Assembly: GCA_017506865.1 (NCBI GenBank)
Contig: JAFCMP010000368.1
Coordinates: 124,001 to 188,000, forward strand
Reading direction: 5' to 3'
Origin: Tribonema minus
Taxonomy: Eukaryota; Sar; Xanthophyceae; Tribonematales; Tribonemataceae
DNA length: 64,000 nt
The notes under the pieces were generated by a model that saw only the letters and a list, made by a program, of their open reading frames with translations, did not search any database and was not told where the DNA came from. Made by a program: the position numbers and the translations under genes. Shown piece after piece: positions 857 to 64,000 of this stretch (position 1 is its first letter; each line of letters begins with the position of its first letter).

Positions 857-3800
857 CTTGTTGTAGCTGTCCCAGAGGTCGCCAAGCACGCCCATGGCAG
901 CAAGCGCAATCATCGCGTCATTGCCGTCTTCCTCCTCAAACTCACCCATGCTGCGGCCTGTTGAGCGTTGCCACAGCAGCAACATCAGTGTGGGTTTATC
1001 TATAATCAAGAAGGATTGTGTGAGCTGAGCCATGGCAAATACTTCAAAGAAGAGTCATATCCACCAGTGTTGCATGGCACCAACGTGAATTGCGCATGAC
1101 ATCCTCAAACTCGCCCATGCTGCGGCCTGCTGAGCAATGCTGCAGTATGTTGAGCATCACCACATCAGTGTTGTGAACAGCAATTTGGGCACGAATCTCA
1201 GCTGTGTGGCTTTGAGCAACTCGTTCTCGTCACACGTCATCATGGCACCGAAGTTATTGAAGTTTGTGATAATTTTTTTTGGCAGCATTCCCGTCTGCTT
1301 TTTCAAACTCGCCCCATGCTTATGCCTGCTGAGCATTGCCACAGTCTAATAATGTGAGCACAACGTTGCTGGGCCCTGGCACTTGAGTCGAAGAGGATTC
1401 ATTCTCGACACACATTCATGACGCCAACTAAAGTGCACAGCAGACAGTTTTTCTCGACACACGATGCTGACACCACTGAAGTGCACAATGCACAGTTTGT
1501 TCTTGGCGCACAGTCAGGCCATCTTTTATGGGGCACAACAGTCCCATTCAAAACGGATCGGGCGTCGCCGCATTGAGCCTGCGCCATGCAAACGTCACCA
1601 GTTCTGCGCGTGTTCGTCTCGAAGAGTCCGTGCCCGATTTGTGTGGCCATTCTGTTTGCCTCATTTTCACGCAAAAGTCCAGGGTCACTTTTCTTCAAAG
1701 CTGGCGTGGATTTAAAAGGGGCGTTTGGGTCCCGATTTCGATCGCCTGATTTGATTGCCATAAAAGACGGCCTCATGACCCTAACTGAACACCAGTTGAA
1801 AGTGCATGATGCACACTTTCATGACGCCAACTTGAAGTACATGACGTTTTGAAGTTGAAACGTCTGTTTTCTAAGCATGCAACTGCAGTGGCACGCATCG
1901 TACTTTCCCACGTCAAGAGGTAGTGTCAGGGTTAGAAGGCACAGTACTCCCATCCATGTACGTATGATACGGTTATAGTGATGTCCAATGTTCCATATAC
2001 ACGCTGCGTATACTAATAAGTATATATGTTTGCGACGACATATAGCAATGTCGTCTACTACTGGAGCGTGTTTGAGCTCTAACCCTACCCCTACCCCTAA
2101 CCCTAACCCCTAACCCTGTTGAAACTTTTCAGCAAGACACCCATTCTTTCTTTAAAAAGATAGCATTGTGTTCATTCGGGACAGTATGTATGTGGCATCT
2201 TCAAGGTCGACTTGATCGAAATTTGAGGGTGAATTTCAAGATGCCCAAGTGGGAGGGGCTGGAATTAGCCTTACAGTGCTCAACACTGACATATTGTCAA
2301 TAATATATGGTGAAGAATGCAATAACGCTCCATGTTCACAGTTTAGAATGACAGCGCACACACACACATGCGCCTCAACCTAAGGTAGGCTGTATAGCCT
2401 TGTTGTAATCAAAGCAGAATCAGGTGCGATGACTGAGTCTTATGTTGTCGCAGTCAACGCAGAATCAGCTGCGATTACTGCGTCCTATCCAACGGCATTT
2501 CTCTTGAAACTGTGCCTGGTCTGTATACGCATGCTCTCGCATATACGACCTAGTGGAAGCGTGGCTGTGTGTGTGGTGAAGCCACCACGATCAATTCAAC
2601 ACATAAAACTAAGGAACTTCAGCGCATAAAATCAAGGAACTGTAAATTTTCAGCGTTGAGCAGTGTCCTGGCGAAGGTTTTCATGAAGCGGGCCAGCCTT
2701 GCGTACGAATGCTCAGCACAGAAAATTCATCCATAAAATTGTGGAGCCGCAGCAATGGTTGGCGTTGAACAAATCGAGGCAGTCAGAGGTGTCCTGGCAA
2801 TTGACAGCAGGCCAGCTTGATCACAGAACCTCAGCAAATCTAAGGCAGTTGGACCGCTTGTACATGCTCCTTGCCTCGCCTCGAGCAATGGCAGTCAGAG
2901 GTGTCCTGGCAATTGACAGCAGGCCAGCTTGATCACAGAACCTCAGCAAATCTAAGGCAGTTGGACCGCTTGTACATGCTCCTTGCCTCGCCTCGAGCAA
3001 TGGCAGTCAGAGGTGTCCTGGCAATTGACAGCAGGCCAGCTTGATCACAGAACCTCAGCAAATCTAAGGCAGTTGGACCGCTTGTACATGCTCCTTGCCT
3101 CGCCTCGAGCAATGGCAGTCAGAGGTGTCCTGGCAATTGACAGCAGGCCAGCTTGATCACAGAACCTCAGCAAATCTAAGGCAGTTGGACCGCTTGTACA
3201 TGCTCCTTGCCTCGCCTCGAGCAATGGCAGTCAGAGGTGTCCTGGCAATTGACAGCAGGCCAGCTTGATCACAGAACCTCAGCAAATCTAAGGCAGTTGG
3301 ACCGCTTGTACATGCTCCTTGCCTCGCCTCGAGCAACGCCATTCGTTGCTCTGTGCTAGTGAGCTGCATGGCTGGATATACCGGTGGTCCAAAGCCCCCT
3401 AACGTGGTGTGATGAGACTCTGCAGCTAGCTTTTATTGAAAACTTCAGTCGAAGGAAAAAGACACCAGATACAGTTTATCGACCTGTACTTCGGTGCTGT
3501 GCCTGAGCCACACAAACTTACTGCAGGCGCCGTGAGGGCCGAGTCTATGAAAGTTGCATGGATACTCTACTTGTTGAAACTCAGTCCCGAAGAGGGCCAG
3601 CGGAATCCGTGATCCCCAGACACGGTCACAAAGATATGGTTTCGTGCTTGACGGTGGGTGGGTTTACGTCACAGGCTTCCATGAGCGCAAGTGCGAGTCA
3701 GTCGATACCTTGTACTGGGCTGCTGCAGGGCTCAAGGTCTGCGCCAAGACGGCAGCAATCCTGATTCATGGTTTGCTTCAACAAAGTGGATCCGCAGGTC

Positions 3801-5901: not shown

Positions 5902-6590
5902 TCACGCGTCCACTTTGCTCTCCGCCGCAGCAGCCTCCGCCTTTGACGCAGACTTCGGCTCTGCCACCGCCGTCCCCCCCTCCCCTTTTCCCTCCGCCCC
6001 CTTCCCCTTCTTGGCAGCCCCCGTTGGCGCCGCCGCCACTGCTGCGCCGCCACCTTCCTTGCCCTTGGAGGGCTTCTTGGCCGGCGGCAGTATGGTACTG
6101 CGCAGCAGGACAGCCGGCTTTTTGGCGGCAGGCGCGGCGGCGGCAGCAGCAGCAGCGGTGTCCGCCGCCGCCGCCGCCGACGACTCCTTAGCGGAGGACG
6201 CAGCAGGCGGCGCCGCCTTGGCCTTAACGGCGGGCAGGATCATCTTTGACTCAGACTTTGACTCCGACTTGGCCTTCTTGGCCGGCGGCGCGGCGCTGGC
6301 ACCTTCCTCATCCAATGGCTTCTTGGCAGCAGCAGCAGCAGGCGCTGCGGCAGCGGGGGCAGTGGCAGTTTCGCCCTCCGGTTTGGCAGAGGGAGGGGGT
6401 GTCTCCGTTTCCGGCTCAGATTTGGCCTTTTTGGCTGCTGAACGCAGCACGGAAGTGGTGGCAGTTTCATCTGCCTTTTTGGCGGAGCGCAGCACGGAAG
6501 TGGTGGCAGTTTCGTCTGCCTTTTTGGCCGGGCGCGCCGCAGAGGTTTCCGCAGTAGCAGCAGAGGCCGTGGGCGTGGGGGGAGGGGTGC
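5902..6590 (-). other. Terminal exon coding a Lys/Ala-rich tail with an internal duplication
   Basis: This 229-residue segment is made almost only of Ala, Lys, Ser, Pro, Glu and Thr. KKADETATTSVLRSA occurs twice in tandem near its start. Such tails are typical of DNA- or nucleosome-binding proteins and carry nuclear-localisation-like KKAKSE and PAKKP clusters. It ends at a TGA at 5902. Long open frames on the plus strand here are shadows of the GC-rich codons. Confidence 0.7.
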
Positions 6591-9500
6591 CTGCACAAGC
6601 GGGGTAGGTAGGGTATGTGCAAAAGGCGGCACATGTTGTTACTGCATGCTTAGAAACGCGAAAGCGCCCGAGTGAGTATTTACAGGAGCACTAATACGCG
6701 CACAATGTGTCCATGTGTTGTCGCAGACATGCACGGTGCTCAAAGCATACCACACGGCATCGCCATACATCGAGTTTTGAAACACTTTTTTCACAGTCAT
6801 TTTGAAGGAAGGGTAGACTGGTGGGGGAATATGCAATATGCATCACCAGGGATAGAGAGCATGCGCATATGAAGGCACCCGAATCACCCGAATCAGGGTC
6901 GCTGCAGCTGCAAAACCCATCCTGGCTGAAGCAGCACAACAAAAAAAGACGCACCTGAAGGTGCAGGTCTGTAACTGTAATCTGTGACTGCAGGTTGGGG
7001 CGCCTGCTTGCAGCAGCAGCGTGCACATGCTTCGGAGGATAGCAATGCATATACTGGTGTACTTGAAATCTTCAGAGTATACCACTGTTACAAATGCGTT
7101 TGTTGCAGAAACCTGCTGCGTTCTGCATGGAGCTGTGCTTGGAGCTTGCGTGGCAGCGGCGTTCGTTGCCAATTTTTCACAACTTCAAATTAGTGAGATT
7201 TGCAATCACCTGCCGGGCTCTGTGGAGTTGTGCTTCGAGCGTCGTCGCGTGACAGCGGCATTTGAACTTCAAGTACTTCGAAGTATACAAAATATACACT
7301 CCTTGTCACTTAGAGCTCTACAAACTTTTGCTTTGTTTCCACACACCAGACTTCAAAACAATAGGTTTTGTAATTATCACCTGCTGGGTGCTGCATGGAG
7401 CTATCCTTAGAGCGCCGTCGCGTGGCAGCGGCTGTTTGAAGTATACAGAACATACACAACTTCAAAATAGTAGGTTTTGCGATCACCTGCATGGAGCTGC
7501 GCCTAGAGCGCCTTCAGGCGGCAGCAGCGTTTGAACTTTACAAAGCATACACAACTTCAATTACCTGCTCGGTTCTGCATGGAGCTGTGCTTGGAGCGTC
7601 GTCGCGTGGCAGCGGCGCTTGAAGTATACCAATTTTGCATAACTTGAACTTAACAGGATTTGCAATCACCTGCTGGCTTCTTCATGGGGTGCTTGGAGCC
7701 CCTGCAGTTTTGATACTGTGTACCCTCCAAAGTATAAGCTCGCAGTATATAGTTCCATATTCTTTTATTTTGAGCAAAAGGTTTTGATATCACCTGCTGG
7801 GTTCTGCATGGAGCTGTGCTTCGAGCGTCGTCGCGTGGCAGCGGCGTTGGCGCGCTTGCGAAACTCCGCCTCACGCGGGTGTGGGGGAATCTCCAGGCCA
7901 AGTTCGCGCCCCCTGCAGGAGGAGAGTCACAGCGCAGTCAGAAGTTGAGGTTGCATCACGCGGAAACCAGCCTCGCGAGGATGCAGCGAAACTTTCCAGG
8001 CTGAGTGCAGACGAGAGTCGCAGCGCACGGCTTGAGGTTCAGCTATGCTGAGCACTGCGCCGGTGTGAGCTTTGCGCCCCCCTTGCAACAGAGAGCACAA
8101 GGGCCAAAGTTCAAGAACGGCGTTGGCACGCTTGCGAAACTCCGCCTCGCGCGGGTGCGGGGGGATCTCCAGGCCGAGTTCGCGCACCCTGCAGGAGGAG
8201 AGTCACAGTGCAGCAACAGTTGAGGTTGCGTCATGCAGAACTCAGGGTGCGGCGAAATTTCCAGGCCGAGTTCACGCCCCTGCAGGAGGAGAGTCACAGT
8301 GCAGCAGAAGGTGAGGTTGCGTCATGCCGAACTCAGCGTCGCGAGGGTGCAGCGAATCCCCACGCCGGGTGCCAGCGGAGAGTCACAGCGCACGAGGTTG
8401 AGAGTCACATGATGCGCAGGCGAGTTGCTCTGCAGGTCGGCATGACTTCGACGTATACATGTACTTCGGAGTAGATGAATGTAATTGAAAAATCTGGCGT
8501 ATTGAAGTCCTTAAATTACTGCCGCTTGAGGGGCGGAAACCTTGTGCTGCACCATGACGTACTTCAAAGTATACGACACGCATGCTCCTATTCAGGTTGC
8601 GCACGCTTTCCCTGCTGGGATATCTCAAACATTCACAAACACTGACAAAGCTACCTACAGATGGGACTCAGGCAGGGCCTCTTCTGCTGCTGCCCCTTTG
8701 AAGTACATGACTTCTAATAAGTGGAGTGTCACCTGTTGAGCACACATGTATGCAGCACTTGCTGTTCGGGTCCAGCTTCGTGTTGATTTACAGCTTTCAG
8801 GGCACGCAGCACGTATTGAGACAATGAGCTGAGCGTCACATGATGATCAGGCCTAGTGTATACAGCAGCTGCTCTGCAAGGCTTTGCTAGCGATATGCCT
8901 GGAACAAATGTCTACACACATAGTCGTATCTAGCACATACTATACTTCAAAGAAGTGATTATGGTGCTGTCTTCTTATGAATGGATTGTCACCTGTTGAG
9001 CAGATGTATGAAGCAGTTGCTGTTCAGGTCCGGCTTGGCGTTTTCTGCTCACTTTCTGTACAAGCAGTATATTACCAAAACAGACTGAAAGTAACATGAT
9101 GTTCTGATCAGTGAAACATCACATGATGTCTTGTAAAAAGTGGCAAATATACGATGGTGACAAGTGGAGTGTCACCTGTTGAGCAGATGTATAAAGCAGT
9201 TGCTGTTCGGGTCCGGCTTCGTCCCCTTGAGGCCCTGCACGAAGGGGTCTTCCGGCGCTGAAGGGTCATATGGGTCCACACTTTTAGGGGGCAGCGGCTC
9301 ATACGTCTGGAGTTCACCTGAGGCGTGCAATAATGGGGGCAGGTATGTCCAGTATAGGGTAGGTTAGGTATATAGATGAGGGTCATACATACCACGCTTT
9401 TGGGGGGCAGCAGCCTCATACGTCTGGAGTTCACCTGAGGCATGCAACAATGGCGTAGGTTTAGGTAAATGAATGAGGGTCATACATACCACACTTTTAG

Positions 9501-12500
9501 GGGGCAGTGGTTCATATGTCTGGAGTTCACCTGAGGCGTGACCTGAGGCGCATGCATACGCATATGATGCGCATGCATATCAACAAGAGCCGGCATGTAC
9601 TACGCGCAAGCTTTGCATGCTCCATCTAAGAGTGAAAACAGTGCCTAACCCTAATCCTAACCCTAATAATAGTGCCAACAACCATACAGCAGGGCATTCT
9701 CACAGCCCTAAGTGAAGTATTACCTGTATTGATTTGCCTTTTGAGGGGCACCGCCATAACCATCTAGAGGTCAGCAGCACGAGTCTCCTGTGCATGGGAG
9801 GTGAGCACACAGGCATGTACGCGGTCGCTGCGTTGCCTTCAGTGGATGACTCTGGACAACATGCTTCAAAACTTTTCCACATTGGCAAAGTCGAGCACCA
9901 TGATGTAGTGCGCAGTGGTGTCCGCCATCAAGAGTGTTTATACCACTACTACCTAGTAGCGAAAGAGTCGGGGCGCAATGCAAGTTGAAGTTTACAGTGT
10001 GTATTTACAATACTCAACACTCAGAAGTACAACCTAGTAACAAAAGGCGCCTCACCCTTCTCCACGTTGGCAAAGTAGAGCACCATAATGTAGTGCGCAG
10101 TGGTGTCAGCCACCATGCGCAGCAGCGACGCCCTGTCCGGGATGCACGTCTCAGCGGGGAACCACTGCGGCCAGCTCTCGGGGTGCGCCCAGACCAGCCT
10201 GCAGCAGCACACGATGAGCCATGTATTGAAGTTCAACTGTAAGTAGCTGTATAGTTTGAAGTTGAAAGCATGACTGGGCCAGCTCTCGGAGTGCGCCCAA
10301 ACCAGCCTGCAGCAGCACAGATTGTGCAGGATATTGAGCATCACCACCCACAGGCCGCCCCGCCCATCGCCAGATCAACTGCACGCATTTGTAGTTGAGG
10401 GAAACCATATTTGATCGTCCGCACCGTCTGCTAGTCCCGCCTCACTAGTTGTCTACTTCAAGATTTGATGGACTTCGACTGAATGCATCCCCATTCACCG
10501 TACACCCACAAATCGACTCGCCCTGGAGCACCGTCTGTAAGTCATTCTCGCTCGCACTCTACTTCAACAAGTTCTTCGACAGTGGATACACATACATACC
10601 TGCCCGTGCGCTGCACGCCCACAATTGTCTTCCCCTCAGGCACAGTTTGCAGCTCTGTCTTGCTCGCATTCTGCTTCAATGTGCACCCCTAAAATAGCCT
10701 TCTTCGCTCGCAATTTACTTCAACAAGTACTTCAACAGTGGACACATACGTACCTGCCGGTGCGCCGCACGCCCATTGTCTTCCCCTTGGGCACTGTCTG
10801 CTGCTCTGTATCGCTCGCACTCTACTTCAAGATGTAATTCAACTATGGTCACATAAATAACCTGCCCGTGCGCTGCACGCCCGCTACCGTCTTCCCCTTG
10901 GACAACATCACTCGCATTCTACTCCAAGATGTACTTCAACAGTGGACACATATATACCTGCCCGTGCGCTGCACGCCCACAACCGTCTTTCCCTTGGGCA
11001 TATTTTGCTGCTCCGTGTCGCTCTCCGCCTCCACCTCCACAAATTCAATCGGGGACGCTCCGTTTTGTGCGCCGCCCTGCAGAGTTTGAAGTTCAAGACT
11101 GAGGTTTCTCCGCCGACGTGCAGTTGAAGTTGGTTTATAATGCATGCCAGCAGATTGACCGTGTACGCACGTCCTCTGCACACGGAGGAAGTGAAGTCAA
11201 TGGCGGAGGATTTGCTGGAGACGGGGCATGTAGGTAAGGAAACGATTCAAAACATTGAAGAGAGGTCTAGGTGACAAGGTGTGGTTAGCCGTCTAATTGA
11301 ATGCCGTCCACCGGTGACTTTGGTCGCCGCTGCTGCGGCCATTGGCCACGAGTCAACCAGTGCCACCATATGCGAATTTTTCGAGCAGCATAGAGTCGTG
11401 AATGTTTGGAGTAGACTCGCTGAGTCGCGTCATGGACAGTGCCACAACATCCACAGTAGTCAATAGACTTCTGTGTGCAAGCTTCCTAGCGTTCGAGTCA
11501 TGGGTGTTCAGTACGGAAAGCTCTCACGTGTTCGGTACGCCAGCTCCAGCTGGTAGCCCAACGCAAGAGGTGCAGCAGCTATTAACTGTATACTGGGCTC
11601 CATTGTCGTGGTGCCACGGGATGGCGATGCTACCCTAACCCTAACCCTCAGCCTAGCCCTAACTGATAGATGGCTACCACCGCTTTAGGTAACCCTAGTC
11701 CTAACCCCACTCCTAACCACCGCACCGCAGCAATGCGCAGGGCCATCAAGCTGAACAGCGAGGCTGGCTGCTGCCAAGGTCCTTGAAAATAGGGCCGGAA
11801 ACCCAGCTTCCCGCGTTGCCTCGCCATTGTGACTACATAAGAGTGTTCAAGTTGAAGTGATCTTAGCACCTTTGTCACGCTAGCTTTGAGTTGCCTGCAC
11901 CTGAAGTCACTGGTTGTGCACCTGCAGTCACCTCACCGGTTGTGCACCTGCCGTCGCCGGTTGTGCAGGCATCGCAACGCTAGGGCGACATCTAAGTGCG
12001 CAACATCGCGCTACATTCAGAGTGAAAACAAGGCCAAAGCCCATACAGCAGCGCGTCTCCACAGCCCCAAGTGTAATTTTGGTTGCATGACCTACACTTC
12101 AGCTTTTCATTTGCAACTGGTTACCCACCTCGCCTTGCCTCCGCAGCAGCACTGCTTACCAACATACCGCTTGCGCTGACCAGACGAATGCCTATGATAC
12201 GTTGAGGTTTAACTTGAGGTACACATAGCAGATGAATTTTAACAGTTGAAATCAACTGGTGACGCGCCTCTGCGCCCTCGGCGGCGCTGCCCTCTTCCTC
12301 TGGCACATGCAGGGGCTTCTCTGAACCATGCCTCCGCAGTAGCACCACTCACCAACAGGCTGCTTGCTCTGGCCAGATGCTCAACCCTCAGATGCAGATG
12401 TAAAGTTGATGTTCAACTTCGAGGCTCTGCTCGCCACGCCGCCGCAGCAGCACCGCTTGCCAACACAGACTGCCTGCTCTGACCAGATGCAATTGTGAAC

Positions 12501-15500
12501 TTTGAATTTCAACCTGATGCACACACAGGTGGAATGGTTGCATCACTTGAACTTCAACATTTCAGATGCAACTGGTGACGCACCTCCGCGCCCTCGGCCG
12601 CGCTGCCCTCCTGCTCCGGCACCTGCGGGGGCTTCTTTGCTTGCCATGCCTCCACGGCAGCATCGATCACCGCCTGCGCCGGTAATGCTGGCTCCTCCTC
12701 ATTGATGGGACCGCCCGACACTTGCTCCAGCTGCTCCAACCACCTACATACGATGAGTATTGAAGTGCAGGGTGAGTCTTGAAGTGCAGGTTTGAGATTG
12801 AAGCGACGTGCAGGTTTGAAACCTGAGGTGAGGGTTGGGGTGTAGGATTAAGATTGGGGGTGGGGGGTATCGTAATGTTGGCTACTCCTCATTGATGGGA
12901 CCGCCCGACACTTGTTCCAGCTGTTCCAGCCACCTGCTCAGGAGGAGTATTGAAGTGCAGGTTCAGGTTGAAGTGAAGTGCAGGTTTTGAGGCCTGACAG
13001 GGCAAGGGGGGTTAAGTTTAAGGTTACGGTAAGGATTAGGGTTTTGAAACTTTTGCGCCTTTTCATTTATGGGACCGCCCGACACTTGCTCCAGCTGTTC
13101 CAGCCACCTGGTCAGGATCAGGGCTGAAGTGATGTGCAGCTTTGAGATTGAAGTGAAGTGCAGGTTTGGGGCCTGAGGTGACGGTCGGGGTTCAGCATTT
13201 AAGATTAGGGTTGGGGCAACGTAATTTTGGTGGCTCGTCATTGATTGGACCGCCTGACACTTGCTCCAGCTGCTCCAGCCACACCTACTCATGAGGGTTG
13301 AGGTAAATTGCAAGCCAAGGGTTGGGATTTAGGTTTTTCAATAGGGTAGGATTATGGCTGTGTTTGGCGCCTCTTCATTAACTGTTGCTTGCTCCAGCTG
13401 TTCCAGCCACCTGCTCAGATGGGAATACAAGTGAAGTGCCAGTTTGCATCATCCCAGGATATTTATTGCATTTATCACTTCAATGCCAGGCTAACATCAA
13501 CTTCAATACATACATACCTGCCCTCCAGCACCGCCAGAGAGAGCACAGGGCCGAACTCGTCATCCTGCAGGGATGCAGTGTGACGCCAACCTGAGATTGG
13601 CAATCTCTGATGATGATATCGGCAACTTCAAATTGTCTGCAACGCCTTACATACATACCTGCCCTCCAGCACTGCCAGGGACACCACAGAGTCAAACTCA
13701 TCATCGTCCAAGGATGCTACATGACACCAGTCGCTGATGATGATATGACATCAATCTTCGATGCCATCCCACAGACGCAGTTGCTGCCAACCTCAAATGA
13801 TATTGTCAACTTCAATGCCATACATACATACATACCTGCCCTCCAGCACTGCCAGGGAGACCACGGAGTCAAACTGGTCATCTTCAAGTGGTGGCTCCAG
13901 CGCCTCCCTGATTGCTGCCACCGTCTGCTGAGCATCATCGTACTCTCCTCTGAAGTCAGAAAAGAAGCAGAACAAAGTGCACCACCAGGCAAATGGTGAA
14001 TTTTAGACCAGAATGCCAAGGTTGGACCGCTGCTGCCACCATCTGCTGAGCATCATCGTACTCTCCTCTGAAGAGGAAATGAAGGGGCAAGCAGGGCACC
14101 AGGGACATGGTGAGTTTTATACTCAAATACTGATACTGAACCCCAGCAGCTACTGCCTCTGCGGAGCATCACTGTACTCTCCTCTAAACTCGAAAAAGAA
14201 GGAGAAAAAGTTGTTGCAACAGGCATATGGTGAGTCCTACACCGAAATGCTAATTTTGAAACCCTGCTGCTTGTGCCTCTGCAGTGCATTGGCATACACA
14301 CTTGTGAAGGTCTTCACACCAAAGCCACTGCGCCACGCGCATGGCAACTTTCACGCTAAAATTGCGATGGCGAATTGCAGCCACTACTGCCGCCGCAGTG
14401 CTTTGCGCGTCCTCTCCTCTGAAGACCATCACAGAAGCAGTGCACCCTGGAAGTTACGCCAGCGGTATTCATCAATTTGACCCTTGTTGCTGCTGCCTCT
14501 GCAGTGTGCCCTTCCTCTCCTCTGAAAACCATCGCTCAAGTAGTGCACCAAAAAGGTGTTGAAGTTAACGCCGGATTGCGACCCTCAACGTCAGCTTCCA
14601 ACACCTGCAGTGCATTTGCAGACTTGCCTCCAGAGGTCGTCACAAAAGCAGTGCATTGAACACGTGTGAGATTCATGCCAAACATGGAGCCCCCTCAATC
14701 TGGATCTGGGGCAGATGCTGTGGGAAATGCAGTACAACCTTGTACTATATTGTACTCGTAGTGTATGCTACAAGTACTGTGCGGTTTACTGCAGATCAGC
14801 AGTATTTGACTTTATCATGGTACCTACACTTGGTGGCGATAGATTTGGACTGCATCACATTGACAACTTGTGGGGATCGGCACTTGAACTTTAACTTGAA
14901 GAATTGTTCTTGCAAAGGCGCTTACCGTTCCAGTGCAGACCAGACGTCCTTTAGCTTGCTGATAAACGGTGGAGCGTGGTCGATGCCTGTTCAATGTGTT
15001 GAAGTTGAAGTAGACAGAAGCAGTTGAAGTAGCGCATGAGTCAGACTGCCAGGTGCAAGGAGAGGTCTGCTTAAGGTCAGAATTGGGGTGTCGCTGTGGC
15101 TTGCTTGCATGAGCACTAGCTGGCTCTTTCTGCATACACACGTTGGCTTCTCAAGACTAACTGAACAAGCACAAAGATTGACAGCCATGCCGTATTGTTG
15201 GCTGGCTAAGGCATACCCTGCTGTTATGCCCTAGGAGAGGGTGGCCACTGCCCGCGCTGCGCACCTGGTATGCTTAGGTGATGGAAGCTCTGCTACGAAT
15301 AGCATCATGGTCATTGAGCAGGCGGTTTTGAGCTTCCGACCTATGCCTATGCACATGACTGCACTACATTCGTCCTAACTTCCTAACTGCACGTTGTGTT
15401 AGCTCTGCTGACACTTCAAATGCTTGTCCAAGTCAGCTGCTGGAATGCTGTGACACAACACTTGTGCACTCAGTACTCCCAAGATGATCATGAGTCCCAC

Positions 15501-25994: not shown

Positions 25995-25997
25995 TCA

Positions 25998-26033
<36 letters not shown>

Positions 26034-50800: not shown

Positions 50801-53800
50801 TGTCTGTGTGTGCATGCACTTGGCAACAGGGAGGAGATCCGGAGGCAGGATCCGCGTGCTCGATGCCTTGCAGCCAGCGTCGAAACACAGCGTTGGCGCA
50901 TCGGTGCAAGAGACCACTGCTGAGCTGGGCCTCAAGTACCTGATACCTACCCCAGGCGCCAGTGGGCGGGGACCCCCAAGGTGCGCTTACAGTGTTAGTG
51001 TCTTTTTATTAAGGTTTCAGGTCAACAGTGCTTTTATTAAGGTTAAGCATTGACCTGACCTCAGATGCTCGATACCTGCTAGAAAGATTAGTTCTTGGTC
51101 AGGATTAGGGTTTATCCGAACCTGAGGGTTAGGGTTATTGTTTGGGTTGAACTCTAGCGATTGCCCTAACCGTACCTTGAAAAGCACTGCAATCCTAGGG
51201 TTAAAGTAAGGATTGATTGTAGCCACAGCAGTGCTCCTGACCTTTGTATTGCAGTGGTAGCATGACTCTGACTTCAACACCTTCGAAAAGTTCAACTTCA
51301 CCAAGCGCTGCGACCCGCGGTGGCAGTGTGGCAACACGATGCACTCTTATTGACACCGGGAGCTCAGCTGTGGGCTCTGGGTTGCAATTTCGATGCTGTA
51401 CGACATACTTCTACTTGCCACAATACTAAATCACTGCCAGTCTGCGCGAGAAAGTCTCTTGCTGCACACCCCTTCCCCACCTGCTATGGCGGACAGCTGG
51501 GGGAAGGCTTGGGCTAGCGATTGTTGCGTCATTCACGTGTCATTTTCTTGCATGGTTTGATACGGTTGTCATGACGTCATCTTTTTGCACCTGTGACCGC
51601 GCTCCTTGTAAGGCTTGAGGTAGGGCTCGTTGCGTCATGCGTTTGTGTGCGTGTTTTATTCTGTGTTCGGTCACCTTACCTTCATCGTTTTTTCCTCCTT
51701 CGACTGAGCTGCCCCCCCCCCCCCCCCCCTCCCCGTCCCCCCCCAACTGCTACGGCAGACGGCTGGGGTAAGGCTTGAGCGGAGGCTTATCGTCCGTTTC
51801 TTTTCATATGTTTGCATGGTTTTTGTACCAATACCTTCAAGTCATTGTCTGTTCCTTCAAACGTGCTTTTGACTTTGCTTGTCTCGGTGACACTGCTCCT
51901 TGACAGGCTGAAGGTAGCACTTTTCGCGTTGTGTTTGTATCATTCATTTGCGTGTTCTTCCTTGTGTGCAGTAATTGCATCATCTTTCTATTGCTTTGAC
52001 CATGCTTCTTGCAGGCTGCCATTCCTGCCGGGCAGGCAGGCTGCGCGTGACACTGCCAGGGACCTGGCCAGGAACCTCAGGCAAGTCTTCCGCAAGTATA
52101 ATGTTGAAGCAGAGATTTGAAGAAGCAAGTTGAATTGAGGATTTGGCAAGTTGACTGCACACACGACTGCCAGGGATCTGGCCAACCACCTCTGGTGAGA
52201 CTAGAGCTCTTGAATGAGTCGTGCTGACAGCATCAAGTTGCCCAAGGTTATGTACAACTTCTGCGCCCTGGAATTCAAGCGGTAGGCAGGTAACCCTAAC
52301 CCTAACCCTAACCTAACCCTAACCCTAACCCGACAACAGGGGGTGCAAACGGGTAGGCAGGTATATAACAATGCAGCAGGTACAGCGTGAAGGAAGTATA
52401 CACTGACTGGTGATGTGATACGCTGGATGGAATTCGCGCAGATGGTTTTGAGTACTGACGACTCATTAATAAGGCGGGTTGTGAATGGTATTGGATGACA
52501 AACAATCCTTTAATTACACGTCGAAGTAGCTTCATATGAATACCGTAAATGCCTGAGTAAACGCCCCCCCTTAGGCTTAGCTGCTCCATTTTGAATTGCC
52601 AGCTAGCAGAGGGGGCGCTTACAAGGGGGAGGGGGCGTTCACTAGGGCCCGGACGGGGCGTTCACAAGGTGCGAGCACGAAGTTCTGGGGTGGCGTTAGG
52701 GGGGGGGGGGGCTCAGCTGCTCCATTTTGAATTGCCAGCTAGCAGGGGGGGCGTTTACAAGGGCCCGGAGGGCGTTTACAAGGTGCGAGCGCAAAGTTGA
52801 GTGGTGGCGATAGCGGACATCTCTGATAACGGCAATGGCGGTGCTGGCGAAGCTTCTCCAGCTGCGACAGCTCTTGCCAAGCGCGCATTGTTGCCTGTGT
52901 GACCATCCGTCTGCAGTAGAAAACACTCAGAGCGACAATGAGTTCAAGTTTGGCTTGAAGTCCGGCTTACTTCGGTTTTTCCCGGCCGTTTTGCGAGCCC
53001 CGTGCCAACCTGCAGCCATTATGGTTGCTAGGGGGCGTTTACACGGGGGGGGGGGGCGTTGTTGCCCACTTTGCCCTGGCAAGCACGCCCATGGGCGTTT
53101 ACAAGGGGGACGGGCTTGTACATGGGGGGGGGCGTTTACTCGGGCATTTACGGTAACAGTTAATAATATGTACGCATGGTGATATTCAGCAGGCGCTTCT
53201 CTAAAACATGCAGTTGACACCGTGCTTGCCAGGTGCTTGGACCTTTGCTTAGAACAGGTGGCTTTGCATTGGACTGCAATATTATCGTTCAACGAAGCTG
53301 ATTTTTGAGAACATGCAATTGCGTTTGCCATGCTTGCCAGGTGCTTGGACCCTTTCTCTGCTGATGCCCATCGTTGGAGCCTGCTTTGCTGAATGACAAC
53401 CAACTCTTGGAGTATACGTCAAAACGGTTACCATGTATCACAGTTTATAACGTGTACGCATGGTGATACTTGTAAGTATTCAACAGGCGCTCCTCAAAAA
53501 TATGTACTTGTGATTGCCATGCTTGCAAGGTGCTTGGACGTACACTCAGGGACAGGCAGATCCGCATTGAACTCCACCTATATACTTCTATAATACATGC
53601 AATTGCGGCCGTGCTTGCCAGGTGCTTGGATCTGTACTCGGGAACAGGCGGATTCGCGCTGAACTGCGCTCTCGGCGGCGCATCGGAGGTAGTGGCGGTG
53701 GAAAAGGCGGCGTGGCCAGCTGCAGCAGCGCTCAGCAATGCGCGCATGAACAAGCTGACGCCACGGTGAGTACAGCAACACTTGAAGTGCAGTACTTGAA

Positions 53801-56800
53801 GTACAATACTTGAAGTACAGTACTTCAGTACATTACTTGCATCACAATACTACCTGAGGTGGCCATCTGCAGCAGCGCTCAGCAACGCGCGCATGAACAA
53901 GCTGACGCCTCGGTGGGTTCCAGCAATGTTTGAGTCACAATAAAAACGAATCAAAAGTTCGTGGAGCTCTAGGTGACAAGGTGCGGTTAGCTGTCACGTT
54001 ACGTGCCTTCCACCACTACCCGTGGTTGCCGCTGCTGCGGCAATTGGCCACGGTCAAACAGTGCCACCATACTGGAAGTGAAGTGCTTGCAGTACATTAC
54101 TTCAAGTGCAATACTTGAAGTGCAATGCTTGAAGTACAATACTACCTGAAGTGGCCATCTGCAGCAGCGCTCAGCAACGTTCGCATGAACAAGCTGATGC
54201 CACGGTGGGTATCAGCATACTTGAAAAGAAAGTGCTTGGCTTACATCCAGCGGCGCGTAGCAGCGGTTTACCCTACATACCCTTCAAGCACACCATGTCA
54301 GACGAATGTTCAATCAGTGGTATTGAAACAAAGCCCAGGAGGGTCGCGCACTGCTCACCTGCTACATGTCCAGGTCTGCTGTCTACTGCGCATGCTAGAA
54401 CATTGACCCATTGCTACAGCTGCCATCGACGCGCAGAAAGACACAACGAGCCTTCGTAATTTGCTGTTTACCTGAAGTCACTGCTGTACTCTTCCCAAGG
54501 AAGTGGCCGATCTGGCTCATGAAGCAGTGTGGTGATTGCTTCGAATGTTGCTACTTCAACATAGGGCTAGAAAGGGCTAGGGTTGACCGGACCCTAGCCC
54601 TGTGCTTGCCTGTGCCATGTGTGGCATCACGCATGGTCCATGGGAAGTTGCTATGTATTTGGGCTACAGTTAGAGGTTGGGGTTAACGTCAGGCTTTGTG
54701 CGTCTCATTGCATCTAACCCCTACCATGATTCGAACCGCTGCTAACCCTAAGCCCAACCCTCACTTTGCCTTTCTTGAGCTGCACAGAGTCCACTTGTCC
54801 CGCCAATGAATGCTCTCATGCTCTCATGCTCGTTTGCCCCCGGCTCAAATCGTTTGCCAATGATACGTGGCGGTATGTATTGGCACTGCTGAACCAGGGT
54901 GTGTCATGATGCAGGCATTGAAGAGAGGATGGGGCAAAGGCAGCGAATACTGCAACAAAAGTTGACAGTCTGCTCGCTGAGGAAAAAACTAAGAAGAAAG
55001 TGATTTGACTATGGTGTGTCATGCAGCGCCCTGGAAATCTGCGGGCGACCCTGGAAATCTGCGGTCGACGCGACCACGATCAACAGCGCGTTAACACATC
55101 AGCGTTGCGCTCCTGGCAGGGTGAAGGTCGTGAGGGCAGATGTTGAAGTTTGGGCCCAGGGTAGGGTCAAGGGTTAATGATGATGATCCGTACCCCTCTC
55201 TGCAATCTGATAGGCTGTGAGGGTGAAGAAATGGTGCAAGCGTTGCGTCGGGCCTGGATAAATGGTCACTGTGAATACGCTAACAGCAGCAGCGCCCTTC
55301 TGACAGGGTGAAGGTCGTGCGGGCAGATGTTGAAGTTTGGGTGCGCGAGGCCTACTCCCGAGGATCGCGTTTCGGCATGGTCATCCTGGATCCGCCCAGC
55401 TTTTCCAAGGTCCCACGCAGCAGACGGAGAGCTGTCCGCAGGTGCGTCGCGATGATGCTCGATATAATGATGATGCTCAGCGCGGTCCATGGGTATGCAT
55501 GTACGCCATTAGATCCACCCAGCTTCTCAAGGTCCTGCGCAGCAGACGGCGGGCGGTGCGCAGGTGCGTCGTAGTGATGCTCAGCAGAGCTTGCAGGTAT
55601 GTATGTATACCATTATTTCCGCCTCTCTTAGGTCCCTTGCACAAGATGAAGAGCGGTGCTCAGGTGCGTTGTGACAATGCTTGACACAATGATGATGCTC
55701 AGCACGACTCGTGGGCATGTATGTATGCCGTTCGATCCAACTGTTCGAAGGTACACGCAGCAGGCGGCGAGAGGAGTGCGTCATGATGATGCTCAAGCAT
55801 GATGATGCTCAGGCTTGATGATGCTCAGCTCGCAGGTAGGTAGGTATGGGAGATAGGCTTCGCTAGTGTGTCCAAGATCTCACAGTGCAGAAGGCACGCG
55901 GTGCGCAGCTGCGTCATGGCGATGCTCAGCACCGGACTGCGGGTAGTTGTACTGTGCACAAGTACAAGTGCTTGAAAGTACGCGATCATGCGGCGGGAGG
56001 CGATCGCAGTCTGAACACGGATCGTTCTTGCATTGTGATGATGAGGCATTTACTCGTTCCCAATATCATATTACGATCCCTGCCCATTGTCTTAAATACA
56101 CAGCGGTGGCGGCTGCGGCGCTGGCACCGACAGTGCCCGGGGGGCTCATCGTAGCGGTGGGCTGCGCGCACGCGTTCGCACACGCGACGGACCTGCTCGC
56201 CGCTCTCGACAGCGCAGCCGCTACAATTATTGATCCATGTCTGCAACTGTCGATCAGGTACATGGCGGTGGCGGCCGCGGCAATGGCACTGGTGGTGCCC
56301 GGGGGGCTAGTTGTAGTGGTGGGCTGCACGCACGCGTTCGCGTTCGCGCACACTGTTGATTCATCTGCGTTGTGCCTCGCTCTCAGAGACACAAAGGTGA
56401 CCGCTGCTGCAATTGCCAATCCCTGCTCGTTGTCGCAGATACACGGCGGTGGCGGCCGCGGCGCTGGCGCTGACAGTGCCCGGAGGGCTCATTGTAGCGG
56501 TGGGCTGCGCGCACGCGTTCGCGCACGCTATTGATTCATCGCCCGTGTTGCACATCGCTCTCAACACGGAGGTCACCACCGCTTGCCAATCCCTGCACAT
56601 TGTCGCAGATACACAGCGGTGGCGGCTGCGGCGCTGGCGCTGACAGTGCCCGGGGGGCTCATCGTGGCAGTGGGCTGCGCGCACGCGTTCGCGCACGCGA
56701 CGGACATGCTCGCCGCTCTCGACAGCGCCGCCGCTACAATTGTTGATCCATGTCTGCAACTGTCGATCCCTGCCCATTGTCGCAGATATACGGCGGTGGC

Positions 56801-58364: not shown

Positions 58365-61300
58365 ATGACTGCAGTAGACGTCGCGGAGGCTGCCACTGGA
58401 TTCAATCTGGTCGGCATGCACGCACCAGCGTTCGCCGCAGGTGAGCACTCACGTTCCGCAAGTCCTCGGTTGTTGTCTTCTGCGATGCTCGACCTGAACG
58501 GTGCTTCCTGCTGCTGGAATAATATCGCTGTAAGCTGACGCGTCAGATCTTCCGTCGGCATCAGTACCTGATGTTTTCAAGTAGATGTGTTGCATTCCTT
58601 TCAACATTCAGAACGCGCCCTCGCAGCAACAGAAAGCCCGAAAGCCCGACTGGTGGCACTAGAGTCGATTCAATCCTTTGTATCGCAAGGGATGCTGTAG
58701 AAAGACATATTATCAGTGAAGAAGAAGATCTCCACAATCATGCACGAACTACACTCGTTGGAAGTAACAGCAAGAGAGAAAAAGGCGTGTGCTCGTATCG
58801 CGCCCCGCTCTGCTTGACTCATGTAACTGAGCATAGTCACTCGCGCCACTGCGTGCGAGCATCTGCAACTGCAGCCAGCGTCTCTCATGATGAGGATTTA
58901 TAGATGGGGGCCACACTGCGCGGGGGTGTGGAACATCAGTCCATCACAGGCACGCCAGGCAGGGCTTGGGGGGGGGGGGGGGGGCAATCGAATCGTTAGC
59001 ACAAAGCGACTGGCAGTGCCCATTGAGACACTCTCAAGGTGTTCACAAGACACATATGGATTCTGTAAGCTGCTAGCAAGCTGGACACCCACCATCTGGG
59101 CTTTTCGCGCTCTAAGCGAGAGTCAACAGAAGGTACTGTTCTTCTGCAAGCGATCGTCAGTGCGCAACGAGAGGGTTAGCGGTAGGGTTTGGGTTAGGAT
59201 TGGGGATATTCACCTTGTCGCAAGGCACGCATAGACTCTGGTGACGACATCGGCATCAATCGTCTGGGCTTTTTTTCCGGGCCTTTTTTCGCACCCAAAG
59301 CGGCACCAGCGAGCATTTAGAAAATTACTGTTTCACAAACGCTGGGGGGGCCCGCAGACCCATTCGCTGCTGAGTCTGCGAGAGACAACTGCATGCGCCG
59401 TATTCAGAGGCAGAGTTTGGGCATGAGCAGAGTGGTGGCCGTTCAAGCCCGTAGCCCCCATCTAGAAATTCTGATCCGTGAGACGCGCTAGCTACAGTTG
59501 CAGACGCTCACTGTAGGGTTAGGTTTAGGGTTAGGGTTATGCTGCCGCCACAGCTGAGGCCACTTAAGCAGCTCGAGTCAATTGCGCAACTCTGTTGGTG
59601 CCGTGGCATGTCTCAACAAGCCCAGCCACAATGATGAGTCATTGAATACCTCAACGGTTGTGAGATTTCTAGACTGAATTTGTGTGTGGTGCGTTGTGCA
59701 CTGTCTGCCGTGTGTCGTGCTGAAGCCCAGCTTCTATGACAATTGTTAAGTGCCTTCAAGAGTGATTCTGCGAGCTCATATAATATAAGTTATATTGAAT
59801 ATACTGAACGCTGGTGCGGTGACGTTTGGACAAGCGCAGCTGCTACGACGAATTGTCAGAGTGAGTGCCTTGATGATTATGAGATGTCCATACTGAATTT
59901 GTGTGCGATGTCTGGTGCGAATGCATTCGTCTGCCGTTTGTCGTGCTGCAGATGCGGTGATGCCCAGCGGCGACTTTGGGGTGGTGAGATGAACCGCGAA
60001 CTTCACATTTGAAGTAGCTGATGCTTGGCCTGGAAGATACATGGTGTTTAAAGCACTTCTTGCTTTGGCTTGAGCATTACTTAAGACTGCTAATAAACTA
60101 GTACACGTGATGCATCTGGCTAGTTTTGGTGGACGATGAACTTCACTTTGAAGTAACTGATGCTTGGCCTCAAAGACACGCAGTCTCCAGAGCACTTCTT
60201 GCACAGAGCATCTACTGTAGACTGCCAGTAGACATGATACTTCTGGCTAGTTTCCATAGCGGCTTTTGCGTCTACGCTCCCTAGCACACTGGTGCTGCAA
60301 CAGCAACAGGTTTAGGGTGAGGCTGAGAGTTAGAGGTAGGATTAGCCCAGCGTGTGCGCTCCTTGCGTGTATGCTGCGGTACCCTTGACACTGACCTAAG
60401 TCTACCCTGACCGAAACCTTGTGCTTACCCAAGCGCTTAGGGTTAGGGTTAGGCTTGTGTCTTGTGCAGAGCTGCAATTGACGCCCTGAGTAAGATCTGA
60501 GTGATGCTGTAACCCTGATCCTAAAACAGCAACTCCACCCTCACCCTGACCCTCACCCCATTCCTGTGTCAACCCTAGCCCTCTCCACTTGTCCTGTGCA
60601 GCTGTAGTCCAAGGACCTCCTGGGCACATACATGGCCATGCTGTAAACCGAATTTTATTCCATGAGCTCAACCCTAATTGTACCCCTAACCCCAACCCTA
60701 ATATTGACCCTGGCCCGTCTCTATTTGTTCTGTGCAGCTGTGCTCCAAGGACCTTCGGGGCAAGTACGTGGCCATGCTTTGAACCCGATCCTCATCCATG
60801 AGCTCAACCCTAATCCTGATGCAAACCCTAACCCTAATCTTAAACCTAGCCCTCTCGTTTTATTCTGTGCAGCTGTCCAAGAGCTCAACCCTAATTGATC
60901 ATCATCCTCACCCCGACCCTAATAATAACCCTAGCCCGTCTCTGTTTGTCCTGTGCAGCTGTGCTCCAAGGACCTTCTGGGCAAGTATGCGACACTGTAA
61001 CCCTGATCCTAACACTCAACTCAAACCCTAACGTTGTTACCCTAGCCCTGATATTAACCCTTGCCCCTCTCTGTTTGTCCTGTGCAGCTGTGCTCCAAGG
61101 ACCTCCTGGGCAAGTACGTGGCCATGCTGTGGTACCCAGCGGACTTCTCCTTTGTGTGTCCAACGGAGGTGACGGCGTTCAATGACGCGTACGACAAGTT
61201 CCAGCACTACGGCTGCGAGGTGCGCACAACTTCAACCCTTGTACAACTGCAACACTTGAAGTTTGCCCTAGCCCTAATTTGCACGTAAACGTGACGTAGT

Positions 61301-64000
61301 CAGGCAACCCGGCTGCGAAGTGCTCACAACTTCAATCCTTAAAGTTTACCCTAGCTTCAACCTGTATGCAAAGCCATGACGCAGCCCCATGACCCTGCTT
61401 GACATCTCAGGCGGCATTTGAAATGCACAAGATAATAAGAGACAGGCTCACCCAGTTGCAACACCATACCAGTGAGAGCTCCAAGCTGATGAAGCGCTTT
61501 TACTACTATGCTACAGGAGTGCATAATGTAACATGCTATATTCGTGTTTGAGTAACGTTGCTCGCTTGGATGCTGCAGACGATCGCTGTCAGCTGCGACA
61601 GCACGTACATGAATGCATTCACCTGAGTGTACCACAGCATTGTTCATCATAATGAAAAGTGTAAGTCAAAGCATTAGAATCAAGTGTAGTGTACTCATGG
61701 AGTTGAACCAAGACAAATCAAGTGTGCAATATGTCTCTATGAGGCTGCATGTGATCTGCTGCCAGTTGCCACTGCAAGCAGATTAAGTCATTCACAGGGC
61801 TTTCGTGATACTCCAGGAAAATGTGTTGCAACGCAAAGAGCTGCTGCTCACTAGCCTGTTGCTCCACACCGACAGCGGTAGACATCAAGGTGCCAATGCA
61901 ACAGAAGACGGACGCCAGTCGTGTGCTGCTAAAAGTGGATAGATTGTGGTCTGTGTACCGGCGAGTGTATCTGCCATAATCGTCACGCGTCAACGGCAAT
62001 GTCAATGAGCACGTAACTGCGATATGCTCCAACACAATGTTCACAAGAGTGTGTTTATTCAGATATTCAATGTTTGCTCCTGAGTCTGCAGGGCATCGCT
62101 GCCAGCTGCCACTGTAAGCAGACAAAGCCATTCACAGGCGTTACTTAGTTGAAGTCTACTACCCCTGCACCGCAGTTCAAAGCGTTTTTCTGCAGGTATT
62201 CAATGTTCGCTTCTGAGTCTGCAAGTGATTGCTGCCAGCTGCGACTGCAAGCAGACAAAGTCATCATTCACAGGGCTGTACTTAGTTGAAGTTTACTACC
62301 ACTCCATCACAATGTAAAGTGCGTTTATTGAAACTCTATTCAGAACTAGCAAGGGTTCAGACTGGTCTGCCGATTGCGATGTAAACCGAGCAAAGTCGAT
62401 GTTGCAGAGAAGCAGAAGCTTTGAGAGAGAGTGTGTTGTTGTGGAGGAAAACAGATCATCCCCACAGGGAACGCGTGGAGCAACCTGCACTGGGTTGCCG
62501 CACAAAACGCCTCCCATCTGAAGTTTGCTTCAGGCCCTGCAGGTTTTCGCTGCCAGCTGTGACTGTGACCCTAACCCTAACCCTAACCCTAACCCTAACC
62601 CTAACCCTAACCCTAACCCCAAAGTGATTCACAGGGCCTTACTTGGTCAAGGTTCACTACCACTCCATCGCATTAGTATATGTAAAGTGCCTCCATTGAA
62701 ACTTCATCGCACATGAATCATGTTATTTGATGTTTGCTTCTGAGTGTGCAGGTGATCGCTGCTAGCTGTGACTCCAAGTACTCCCACCTGGCCTTCACGG
62801 AAAGTGTGTTTATTCGGGTACTATTATTCACTTCACTGGTCGTTTTTGAGCGTGCAGGTGATCGCCGCCAGCTCCGAAATGCACAGGGCATCACCTGGCT
62901 AACGTCTAGTAACAGTCCATCGCAGAGTAAAGTGTGTTCATTCAGGTCTTTCATGATTGCTTCTGAGTGTGCAGGTGATTGCCGCCAGCTGCGACTCCAA
63001 GTACTCCCACCTGGCCTTCACGGAGAAGTCCTGCAAGGAGGGGGGCGTGGGGAAGCTCAACTTCCCCCTCATCTCCGACGCCAACCGCGCCATTGCTCAG
63101 GTGTGTTGAGAACTCTGGACCTGCCGTTTTTTTTAATGAAGTTGTGACAGCCAGCGCGTGGGCTGCGTTTTTTGCAAAATGTAGAAGTTGTGTGGGAAAG
63201 TTCAACTTCAACACCCCCCTCCGACGTCGACCGTGCCATCGCGCAGGTGTGTCGAAGACTGCAGTTGAAGTTGCATAGCTCCTCATGAGTCTAGTACAAA
63301 GTGATGAGCAGATGTGTTGCCTGTCGTTGTTGCATGTGCGTTGCTTGCCTGGGAAATTCAACGTCAACTTCCCCCGTCGTCTCCGACGCCGACCGCGCCA
63401 TTGTGCAGGTGTGTCGAGCACTGCGGATGAGGTTGCAGTGCTTCTCATATGAGTCAAGCTCGTGACGGCGTGCACTGTGTCATCTGCCTTTGTTGCGTGT
63501 GTGTTCACTCACCTGGAAAAATTAACTTCAACTTCTGTATTGAACCTGATGCACACCGCGCCATTGTTAGCACCTGGGAAGTCTTGCTGAGTGCTCTGAC
63601 AGGCACACGTAGCCTGCGGCCTGGTTACCGATGCAGTGCGGTAATGAATTTTCAAGATGCTCGCTTTCCACGGAGCTCTTCACCTTCTGCATGTGCCACT
63701 GCAACCCTAAACCTACCCTTGATCCCAACCCTATCCCTAACCCTAAAGCCTGTGAGTCCTTCGGCCTCCTGAGTACGTGAGCGGCTTCTCAGAGCTCCTC
63801 TCCTTCTGCATGTACAACTGCAACCCTAATCCTCGCCCTATTTCTTGCCCTAACCCTTACCCTGACCCTAAACCCTGCAAGTCCTTTGGCATCCTGGTCG
63901 TGTGTGGTGCACTGCTGCTTGCACGAAGCAGTTCTGCTTGCCCAGAGAACGCTTGGTTCAACAACAATAGTAATACTAATGATGGTACCAGTGCACACTT
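58365..64000 (+). CDS. Typical 2-Cys peroxiredoxin, 5' part (runs off the right edge)
   Basis: Thioredoxin-dependent reduction of peroxides. Exons: 58365-58440 (MTAVDVAEAATGFNLVGMHA, PAFAA), 59952-59983 (DAVMPSGDFGV), 61088-61219 (LCSKDLLGKYVAMLWYPADF, then SFVCPTE) and 62975-63100 (VIAASCDSKYSHLAF, GGVGKLNFPLISDANRAIAQ). Phases 1, 0, 0 and 0 agree and the joined order matches the Prx1/AhpC family throughout. The peroxidatic Cys is in FVCPTE. The resolving Cys and the C-terminal half lie beyond the window. Copies of the next exon's head (TCCTTTGGCATCCTGG; reads SFGIL) appear near 63750 and 63882, so exon 5 lies further right. The ATG is in GACCATGACT. No presequence precedes LVGMHAPAF, so the product is probably cytosolic. 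ASCDS replaces the common SVDS. Confidence 0.88.
60590..61345 (+). repeat. Junction copies around peroxiredoxin exon 3 (61088-61219)
   Basis: Four head copies upstream near 60595, 60731, 60867 and 60955 (TGTGCAGCTGTGCTCCAAGG), each preceded by CCCTAAC-rich intron tail, about 85-135 bp apart. One tail copy lies downstream at 61308-61340 (GGCTGCGAAGTGCTCACAAC). The frame is lost in the copies. Confidence 0.93.
61570..63585 (+). repeat. Junction copies around peroxiredoxin exon 4 (62975-63100)
   Basis: Head copies upstream near 61577, 61748, 62090, 62210, 62540, 62750 and 62858 (GCAGGTGATCGCYGCCAGCT). The one at 62750 extends furthest, through CTCCCACCTGGCCTTCACGG. Tail copies downstream at about 63188-63250, 63350-63412 and 63515-63580 (CCGACCGCGCCATTGTGCAG + GTGTGTCGA). 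Confidence 0.93.
62566..62624. repeat. Longest interstitial telomere-like tract
   Basis: About nine uninterrupted CCCTAA units, directly after a decayed peroxiredoxin exon 4 head copy (reads AASCD) inside intron 3. Its perfection suggests recent origin or recent expansion. Confidence 0.92.

Follow-up and report, generated by a model that had tools for sequence, protein, structure and literature searches.

Tandem copies of splice junctions lie on the intron side of most listed exons in a 64-kb window

The window, by which we mean the whole 64-kb stretch of DNA analysed, has a base composition of 52% G+C and GT-AG introns. Based on the gene finder, Pfam and solved structures, the plus strand carries an mTERF-family gene, a methyltransferase (Cons_hypoth95 / Methyltrans_SAM) and a 2-Cys peroxiredoxin, and the minus strand carries gene E and a partial paralogue of it, gene D. 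For D and E a convincing database match was not found, and searches for RNA families and tRNAs in the window found none. Exon boundaries were set by a purpose-written gene finder, seeded with the ten exons named in the original prediction. The start of exon E10 was taken from that prediction, the gene finder itself having placed it at 9257, and those of Px1 and D1 were chosen manually. The donor of E8 is at 10958, and the first copy, reach and order tables were computed with its end 4 bases early (10962). The set holds 27 exons, 15 in the three homology genes and 12 in D and E, where coding signal was the sole basis of the exon ends; other exons may exist. The firmest exons are those of the peroxiredoxin and the methyltransferase. 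The peroxiredoxin aligned with solved structures without gaps over the junctions 58440|59952, 59983|61088 and 61219|62975, and in the methyltransferase 78 residues matched 78 positions of the Pfam Cons_hypoth95 profile over 53765|55307 with no net gap; these exons are therefore independent of the repeats described below. The mTERF Pfam matches covered part of the gene only, with mT1 and most of mT7 outside. Gene D (26001-29642, minus strand) resembles the 5' portion of gene E (19677-23679, minus strand) and would be its diverged paralogue, and exons D2 and E2 share 75% identity, each gene having a separate set of junction copies.

Several other features were observed in the window. At 2778-3336, five copies of a 112-bp unit with 100% identity form an array, either a satellite of very recent origin or a product of the assembly. 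The original prediction had begun its patterned region at 2780, a start that has to be given up, as this array lies outside the five gene spans and is not related to junctions. A predicted exon at 4131-4394 (minus strand), reading MVKTGIALIVAAGAAASTTAFVVPN..., resembles a signal peptide bearing the AF-type cleavage motif of secondary plastids, and it may hint at a secondary-plastid alga. Within a long predicted Ala/Lys-rich exon of gene E (5908-6590), a 45-bp repeat is found at 6425-6555, and since this unit is a multiple of three, the frame is kept despite the duplication of coding sequence. A GC-rich tandem array at 56074-56911, with a unit of 162-177 bp, is open in several frames on both strands. 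A dispersed repeat of about 120-240 bp that starts GGAAACGAATCAAAAGATCGTAGAGCTC occurs on both strands at 11228, 19363 (-), 27584 (-), 27900 (-), 32308 (-), 34011, 34082, 35564, 39717, 53944 and 57667; in contrast to the junction copies, it is scattered across the window. Patterns of this repeat had no exact match in viral or genome contigs, and two protein stretches from the window used as probes found nothing in viral contigs. Telomere-like CCCTAA/TTAGGG hexamers (for example at 34408, 52291 and 62568) number 130 versus 30 expected from base composition, with 1 inside the listed exons, and plus-strand CCCTAA predominates in four of the five gene spans regardless of gene strand.

To find copies of exon ends, we ran blastn (E<=1e-3, at least 15 bp of exon required) with each exon plus 150 bp on each side against the introns flanking it, the search extending as far as the neighbouring listed exon or to 3 kb. 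In the mTERF gene (plus strand), arrays were found at both ends of mT1 (31831..31929; head array 30472-31862, tail array 31898-32223; 4 copies upstream, 3 downstream), mT2 (33173..33356, in the mTERF Pfam match; head 32789-33253, tail 33272-33951; 2 upstream, 4 downstream) and mT3 (35381..35460; head 35184-35399, tail 35409-36338; 2 upstream, 7 downstream). A head copy (42054-42221) and a tail array (42344-42727) accompany mT7 (42207..42427; 2 upstream, 2 downstream), and head arrays stand before mT5 (39016..39105; 38578-39050; 1 upstream, 0 downstream), mT6 (40914..41007; 40219-40955; 6 upstream, 1 weak downstream) and mT9 (44762..44872; 44269-44841; 2 upstream, 0 downstream). The methyltransferase exons, placed by Pfam, are MT1 (53622..53765, Cons_hypoth95; head array 53156-53667, tail array 53712-54225; 2 upstream, 2 downstream) and MT2 (55307..55441; head copy 55096-55341, tail array 55389-55931; 1 upstream, 4 downstream), also on the plus strand. 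On the same strand, the peroxiredoxin exons, placed by structure homology, include Px3 (61088..61219; head array 60504-61131 with 3 copies upstream, short tail copy 61210-61340), Px4 (62975..63100; head array 61740-63029, tail array 63047-63535; 4 upstream, 2 downstream) and a counter-example, Px2 (59952..59983), which has no copies.

On the minus strand, D2 (26953..27113) has a head array at 27046-27356 with a further copy near 27492 and a tail array at 26611-26981 (2 upstream, 1 downstream), and its paralogue E2 (21513..21673) has a head array at 21608-22593 and a tail array at 20475-21587 (5 upstream, 7 downstream); both were placed in trees. Among the following exons of gene E, two-sided arrays were found at E5 (17446..17581; head 17533-18075, tail 16864-17523; 1 upstream, 4 downstream), E7 (12584..12743; head 12682-13436, tail 12080-12671; 4 upstream, 1 downstream), E10 (9176..9317; head 9276-9540, tail 8708-9222; 2 upstream, 2 downstream) and E11 (7794..7912; head 7842-8356, tail 7111-7848; 2 upstream, 6 downstream). 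E3 (19677..19923; head copy 19870-20076, tail copy 19533-19704) and E9 (10056..10198; head copy 10164-10319, tail copy 9872-10115) have 1 copy on each side. Tail arrays without upstream copies lie at E4 (18462..18645; 18273-18486; 2 downstream), E6 (13836..13924; 13506-13885; 2 downstream) and E8 (10958..11076; 10521-11023; 3 downstream).

In the five genes, 23 of the 27 exons have copies of their own ends in their own introns, and 16 of the 27 have them on both sides; mT8, mT10, Px1 and Px2 (4/27) have none. All 103 same-strand copies obeyed one side rule. The acceptor was spanned by 44 of the 48 upstream copies, the other 4 holding the head only, and the donor by 45 of the 55 downstream copies, the other 10 holding the tail only; at this threshold (E<=1e-3) no copy lay on the wrong side, and none contained both junctions or the whole exon. 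D1, a first exon, was kept in the 103 copies and dropped from the AG count and the reach and overlap table. The original prediction, that at nearly every exon of five genes on both strands head copies lie only upstream and tail copies only downstream, was thus borne out, with 0 head copies downstream and 0 tail copies upstream at E<=1e-3. Of its ten named two-sided exons, nine stood at this threshold, and Px3 (61088-61219) had, on the downstream side, the short copy only. These ten had been picked because the pattern was visible in them, and in the 17 exons outside them 39 of 39 copies obeyed the rule (21 upstream, 18 downstream). Px3, Px4, MT1 and MT2 alone gave 10 upstream and 8 downstream copies, all on the predicted side. 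No opposite-strand copy was found at E<=1e-3 after the exon-overlap filter, one minus-strand match having been recorded before it, and relaxing the threshold to E<=5 yielded no wrong-side junction-spanning copy, together with 33 same-strand matches without a junction that were unsorted by exon part.

The count per side was also set against chance, as the original prediction had proposed. Flanks resampled to first order gave 0 matches over three rounds. In contrast with the true exons, a set of 108 length-matched pseudo-exons placed in these introns returned 16 '5-prime' copies on the downstream side and 22 '3-prime' copies on the upstream side, together with 17 copies of the entire segment beyond its bounds. 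The side rule is broken freely by pseudo-exons in the same introns and, at E<=1e-3, never by true exons. Among self-BLAST pairs less than 2 kb apart, 191 were direct versus 7 inverted, and 38.5% of the window lies in local direct repeats, compared with 1.3% in local inverted repeats.

Each affected junction forms the terminal member of a tandem array with units that span the junction. A working exon consists of a head unit, a unique middle and a tail unit, and the remaining units, the spares, lie in the introns. Neighbouring units are spaced 70-526 bp apart (median 141), and the copies reach 15-81 bp into the exon at the head and 20-88 bp at the tail. In several arrays, such as those of MT1, E8 and the E11 tail, one in-exon breakpoint is common to 2 to 5 spares, as expected if one founding unit multiplied. 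Uniform placement predicts about 0.48 whole-exon duplications per junction-crossing event, and their absence among the 103 copies is expected if selection removes them. The reach into the exon appeared non-uniform (KS p 6e-6), a departure that was removed by requiring about 45 bp of intron to be kept in the unit; compared with uniform breakpoints under this requirement, p was 0.58 for the longest reach and 0.065 for the median reach. In all two-sided exons (16 of 16) the head and tail zones overlap by at most 7 bp. The 45-bp-intron model weakens this separation without removing it (P 0.007), and it stays beyond the random-breakpoint prediction. Six exact tandem duplications turned up in a scan covering unit lengths of 12-259 bp. 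In the five of about two copies, none of which lies on a listed junction, the extra homology at the join was 0, 0, 0, 0 and 2 bp, which fits fill-in of staggered breaks and joining better than repeat slippage, the numbers being small.

Identity between exon and spare in the homology genes was 0.901, 0.919 and 0.774 at codon positions 1, 2 and 3, respectively, and 0.815 in the intron part, and the corresponding values in genes D and E were 0.902, 0.917, 0.823 and 0.837. The difference is about 9% where the spare alone may change and 16-23% where both spare and exon may. Between spares, identity was 0.845, 0.837 and 0.744 at the three codon positions and 0.762 in the intron part, and the excess difference at position 3 fits spares that left the working exon at different times. 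The exon part was closer than the intron part in 52 of the 66 copies in which both parts measured 15 bp or more, and net frame-shifting gaps were present in the exon part of 25 of the 103 spares. Measured over their exon parts, the junction copies share 71-100% identity with the exon, in most cases under 97%, and they differ from one another in length, breakpoints and indels. The splice dinucleotides were retained (AG in 36 of 47 spares, GT in 46 of 55) at close to the neutral expectation of 0.83 from codon positions 1 and 2. An apparent over-retention of GT in HSPs covering the junction (45 of 48) was gone once the count took in copies that stop before the junction. The decay of the spares looks neutral, as of leftovers from a constrained original.

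Within arrays, the copy nearer the exon was more similar to it in 93 pairs and less similar in 42. This trend had a within-array permutation p of 0.0008 over 28 arrays, and of 0.019 without E2, the strongest exon. The nearest copy was best or tied best in 18 of the 28 arrays, so that the proposal of the youngest copies lying nearest the exon agrees with the overall trend in this window but not with 10 of its 28 arrays. In the trees, downstream spares 3, 4 and 7 of E2 share private changes, and spares have therefore also been copied from spares. At both ends the D2 exon groups with a spare of its own gene, the sequences being short and the support 0.89 and 0.94, and the E2 head groups with E2 spares at a support of about 0.80 or less. 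The D pair is joined by one downstream E2 spare (0.83), and a D2 spare by two upstream E2 spares (0.87); given this mixed grouping, some spares look older than the gene duplication. By eye, the stretch after the copied head appears alike in D and E. We read the founding duplication as old, with some spares probably predating the gene duplication and copying apparently renewed afterwards, most clearly in D.

The share of intron bases in local direct repeats is 0.588 up to 300 bp from a listed junction and 0.267 at distances over 600 bp. Introns had been predicted to be built from junction copies, and this holds for a part of them: 25-50% of intron bases per gene are in detectable local repeats, and 27% of those more than 600 bp away from any listed junction. 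Of the 52 junctions, 40 (0.77) lie inside local repeats, with 20 of 20 in the ten exons of the original prediction and 20 of 32 (0.625) in the other 17; in the homology genes minus the former, the count is 7 of 15. Outside gene spans the local repeat coverage is 30%. Half of the repeat families (38 of 76) touch no listed exon, and within gene spans 30 of 53 families (0.57) touch one.

To see what selection on exons would produce by itself, we simulated duplications with a uniform distribution along genes, retaining only those that left the exon intact and detecting them by the same BLAST procedure. Codon positions 1 and 2 were frozen and drift acted elsewhere; the rates and intron histories were assumed, so the sizes are rough. 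Growth, steady-state, homology-driven and transposon-diluted designs were run with 5-6 replicates per setting, and 30 in a larger run. The uniform steady state gave a mean junction coverage of 0.08-0.34, with mean coverage lower near junctions than far from them. Uniform homology-driven array expansion gave 0.03-0.10, and the homology-driven design with 90% junction-biased founders at most 0.43. Uniform growth with transposon dilution gave 0.07-0.30, or about 0.31 in the larger run; some of its settings also had near-junction coverage above far coverage, and 0 of 60 replicates reached 0.62 junction coverage, nor did any of 60 reach the exon-touching family share of 0.57. Together, the uniform steady-state, homology-driven and transposon-diluted designs span 0.16-0.67 intron coverage. 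Uniform growth from short introns reached 0.41-0.63 junction coverage with 0.76-0.97 of the intron turned into repeat; starting from 100-bp introns, it gave 0.51-0.63 with 0.92-0.97 of the intron repeat, versus the observed 0.25-0.50 per gene. In every setting the uniform mean was below the observed 0.77, and the 0.625 of exons not in the original prediction was approached only by introns that were almost wholly repeat. In the settings closest to the data, junction-crossing duplications make up about half to nine tenths of those kept. Based on this shortfall of uniform placement, junctions would therefore receive more duplications or keep them longer. The original prediction had explained the pattern by duplications being tolerated at junctions and not inside exons; tolerance suits the sides and the missing whole-exon copies, but under the uniform simulations it falls short of the amount of copying at junctions. 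Selective tolerance would not readily be enough for the concentration there, the size of the excess being model-dependent.

Taken all together, junction-spanning tandem duplication combined with purifying selection is well supported. The counts, identities and order of the copies agree with the original proposal of a one-junction segment that is duplicated, leaving a working copy at the exon and a spare that decays in the intron. A short tandem duplication would fall across an intron-exon boundary, and only the arrangement with an intact exon would survive, because of which the spare would always be on the intron side. The spare would decay neutrally while the same junction is copied again, and the introns would lengthen from both ends, holding a fossil row of former splice sites. 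In addition, more duplications would arise or survive at junctions than in other parts of the intron. We consider this whole account, comprising junction duplication, exon-keeping selection, neutral decay, repeated copying and junction focus, to be probable for the single 64-kb window. A bolder form of it, in which the splice junctions of this lineage are hotspots for short blunt tandem duplication that continually bud decaying copies and are a main engine of intron lengthening from both ends in place of transposons, is tentative, and we lean slightly against it.

The side rule and the missing whole-exon copies would come free if tandem duplication were random everywhere and exons were kept by selection, with junctions nothing special, which is the mechanism of the original prediction as stated. 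Arrays do occur away from listed exons and outside gene spans, at the 30% coverage given above, and growth from 100-bp introns comes near the 0.625 of the exons not named beforehand. However, that growth makes far more of the intron repeat than is observed, while the other uniform designs stay at 0.03-0.34 junction coverage and never reach 0.62, or the 0.57 family share, in 60 replicates; we regard purely random duplication as unlikely. A duplication hotspot would also be unnecessary if gene conversion from the selectively frozen exon refreshed the adjacent spares, so that arrays at junctions lasted longer. The greater similarity of nearer spares, the grouping of the D2 exon with its own spares and the founder breakpoints common to array members all suit this idea, which we nevertheless find somewhat unlikely: simulated unequal exchange dependent on homology, which is not conversion itself, left junction coverage unraised, and the spares differ from each other most at codon position 3, which fits separate budding.

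Intron birth by tandem duplication of an AGGT-containing exon segment (the Rogers model), without lengthening of existing introns, involves the same class of mutation, and cases of it are described in two reports (PMC4974935, PMC2891723). The units found here cross an existing junction and carry intron sequence, and the head and tail arrays extend toward opposite intron ends instead of forming AG|GT units between them, so we judge this birth model improbable. It is also very improbable that the spares are functional, as decoy or alternative splice sites, poison exons or enhancers under selection. While AG or GT is kept in about 80% of them (82/102), and GT in nearly all junction-covering HSPs (45/48), retention is neutral once copies stopping short of the junction are included, frame-shifting gaps are found in a quarter of the spares (25/103), and codon positions 1 and 2 have decayed by about 9%. 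False local duplication in the assembly would suit the 100% identical 5 x 112-bp block at 2778-3336, but the junction copies, mostly less than 97% identical within a range of 71-100% and differing in length, breakpoints and indels, make such an artefact a nearly negligible explanation for them.

Intron lengthening is usually ascribed to transposons and indels. The new point here is that tolerance by selection would hardly account for the concentration of duplications at junctions, as judged from the simulations. Since the working exon provides a fixed point of comparison, the order of birth, the decay rate and the rate of duplication could be measured gene by gene. If junctions were true hotspots, splicing or exon chromatin would be linked to DNA breakage. 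The arrays are also a warning for gene finders, as the spares resemble exon starts and ends, and our own gene finder mistook several of them for exons.

Compared with known systems, the arrays share features with several and coincide with none of the following. Introner elements bring mass growth of intron sequence by dispersed copies, whereas the copies here are local; the far self-matches (best 70 of 178) were mainly D/E paralogy, one dispersed family and TTAGGG blocks, not copies across many introns or genes. Tandem exon duplication, in which the whole exon is copied with both splice sites, was seen in 0 of 103 copies. As in intronic minisatellites, the units are tens to hundreds of bp long by TRF and self-BLAST, but their position does not appear independent of junctions by the coverage profile and the simulations, a model-dependent result, and to our knowledge minisatellites have no tie to splice junctions. 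Human introns are reportedly derived from tandem arrays, going by the title of Zhuo et al. 2007, and tandem arrays would then be an intron source, as they would be here.

Small tandem duplications are made by CST / Pol alpha fill-in at staggered breaks (PMC8355091); these are short as here, and the available part of that article describes no link to splice junctions. In Drosophila, novel intron positions arose by tandem duplication (PMC2891723), with a partial exon duplication and loss of one copy to the intron, much as here; the available text concerns a handful of introns, without arrays or a two-sided pattern. In the model of Rogers, Hellsten and Gao-Lynch, as cited in PMC4974935, introns are created from duplications of AGGT-containing exon sequence. 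Common to that model, in the form cited, and to our case is that a within-gene tandem duplication yields intron and leaves the protein unchanged. In contrast, a Rogers-type unit is exonic and creates both splice sites, as described there, whereas the unit here crosses a junction that was already there and makes an existing intron longer: 44 copies span an acceptor, 45 a donor and 0 both. The closest case is the potato RdRp gene, in which an intron was gained via a tandem duplication crossing an intron-exon boundary (PMC4974935). As far as the accessible part of that report goes, it is one event in one gene, giving a new intron with a recruited donor, whereas decayed duplicate arrays are found here at most exons of five genes, on both sides in 16 of 27. 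Among the matches listed, from a search with preprints and most subscription papers beyond its reach, there was no precedent for junction-copy arrays as a general intron feature. As such, isolated duplication cases are already known, chiefly that of potato RdRp, and arrays across most exons of several genes are little described.
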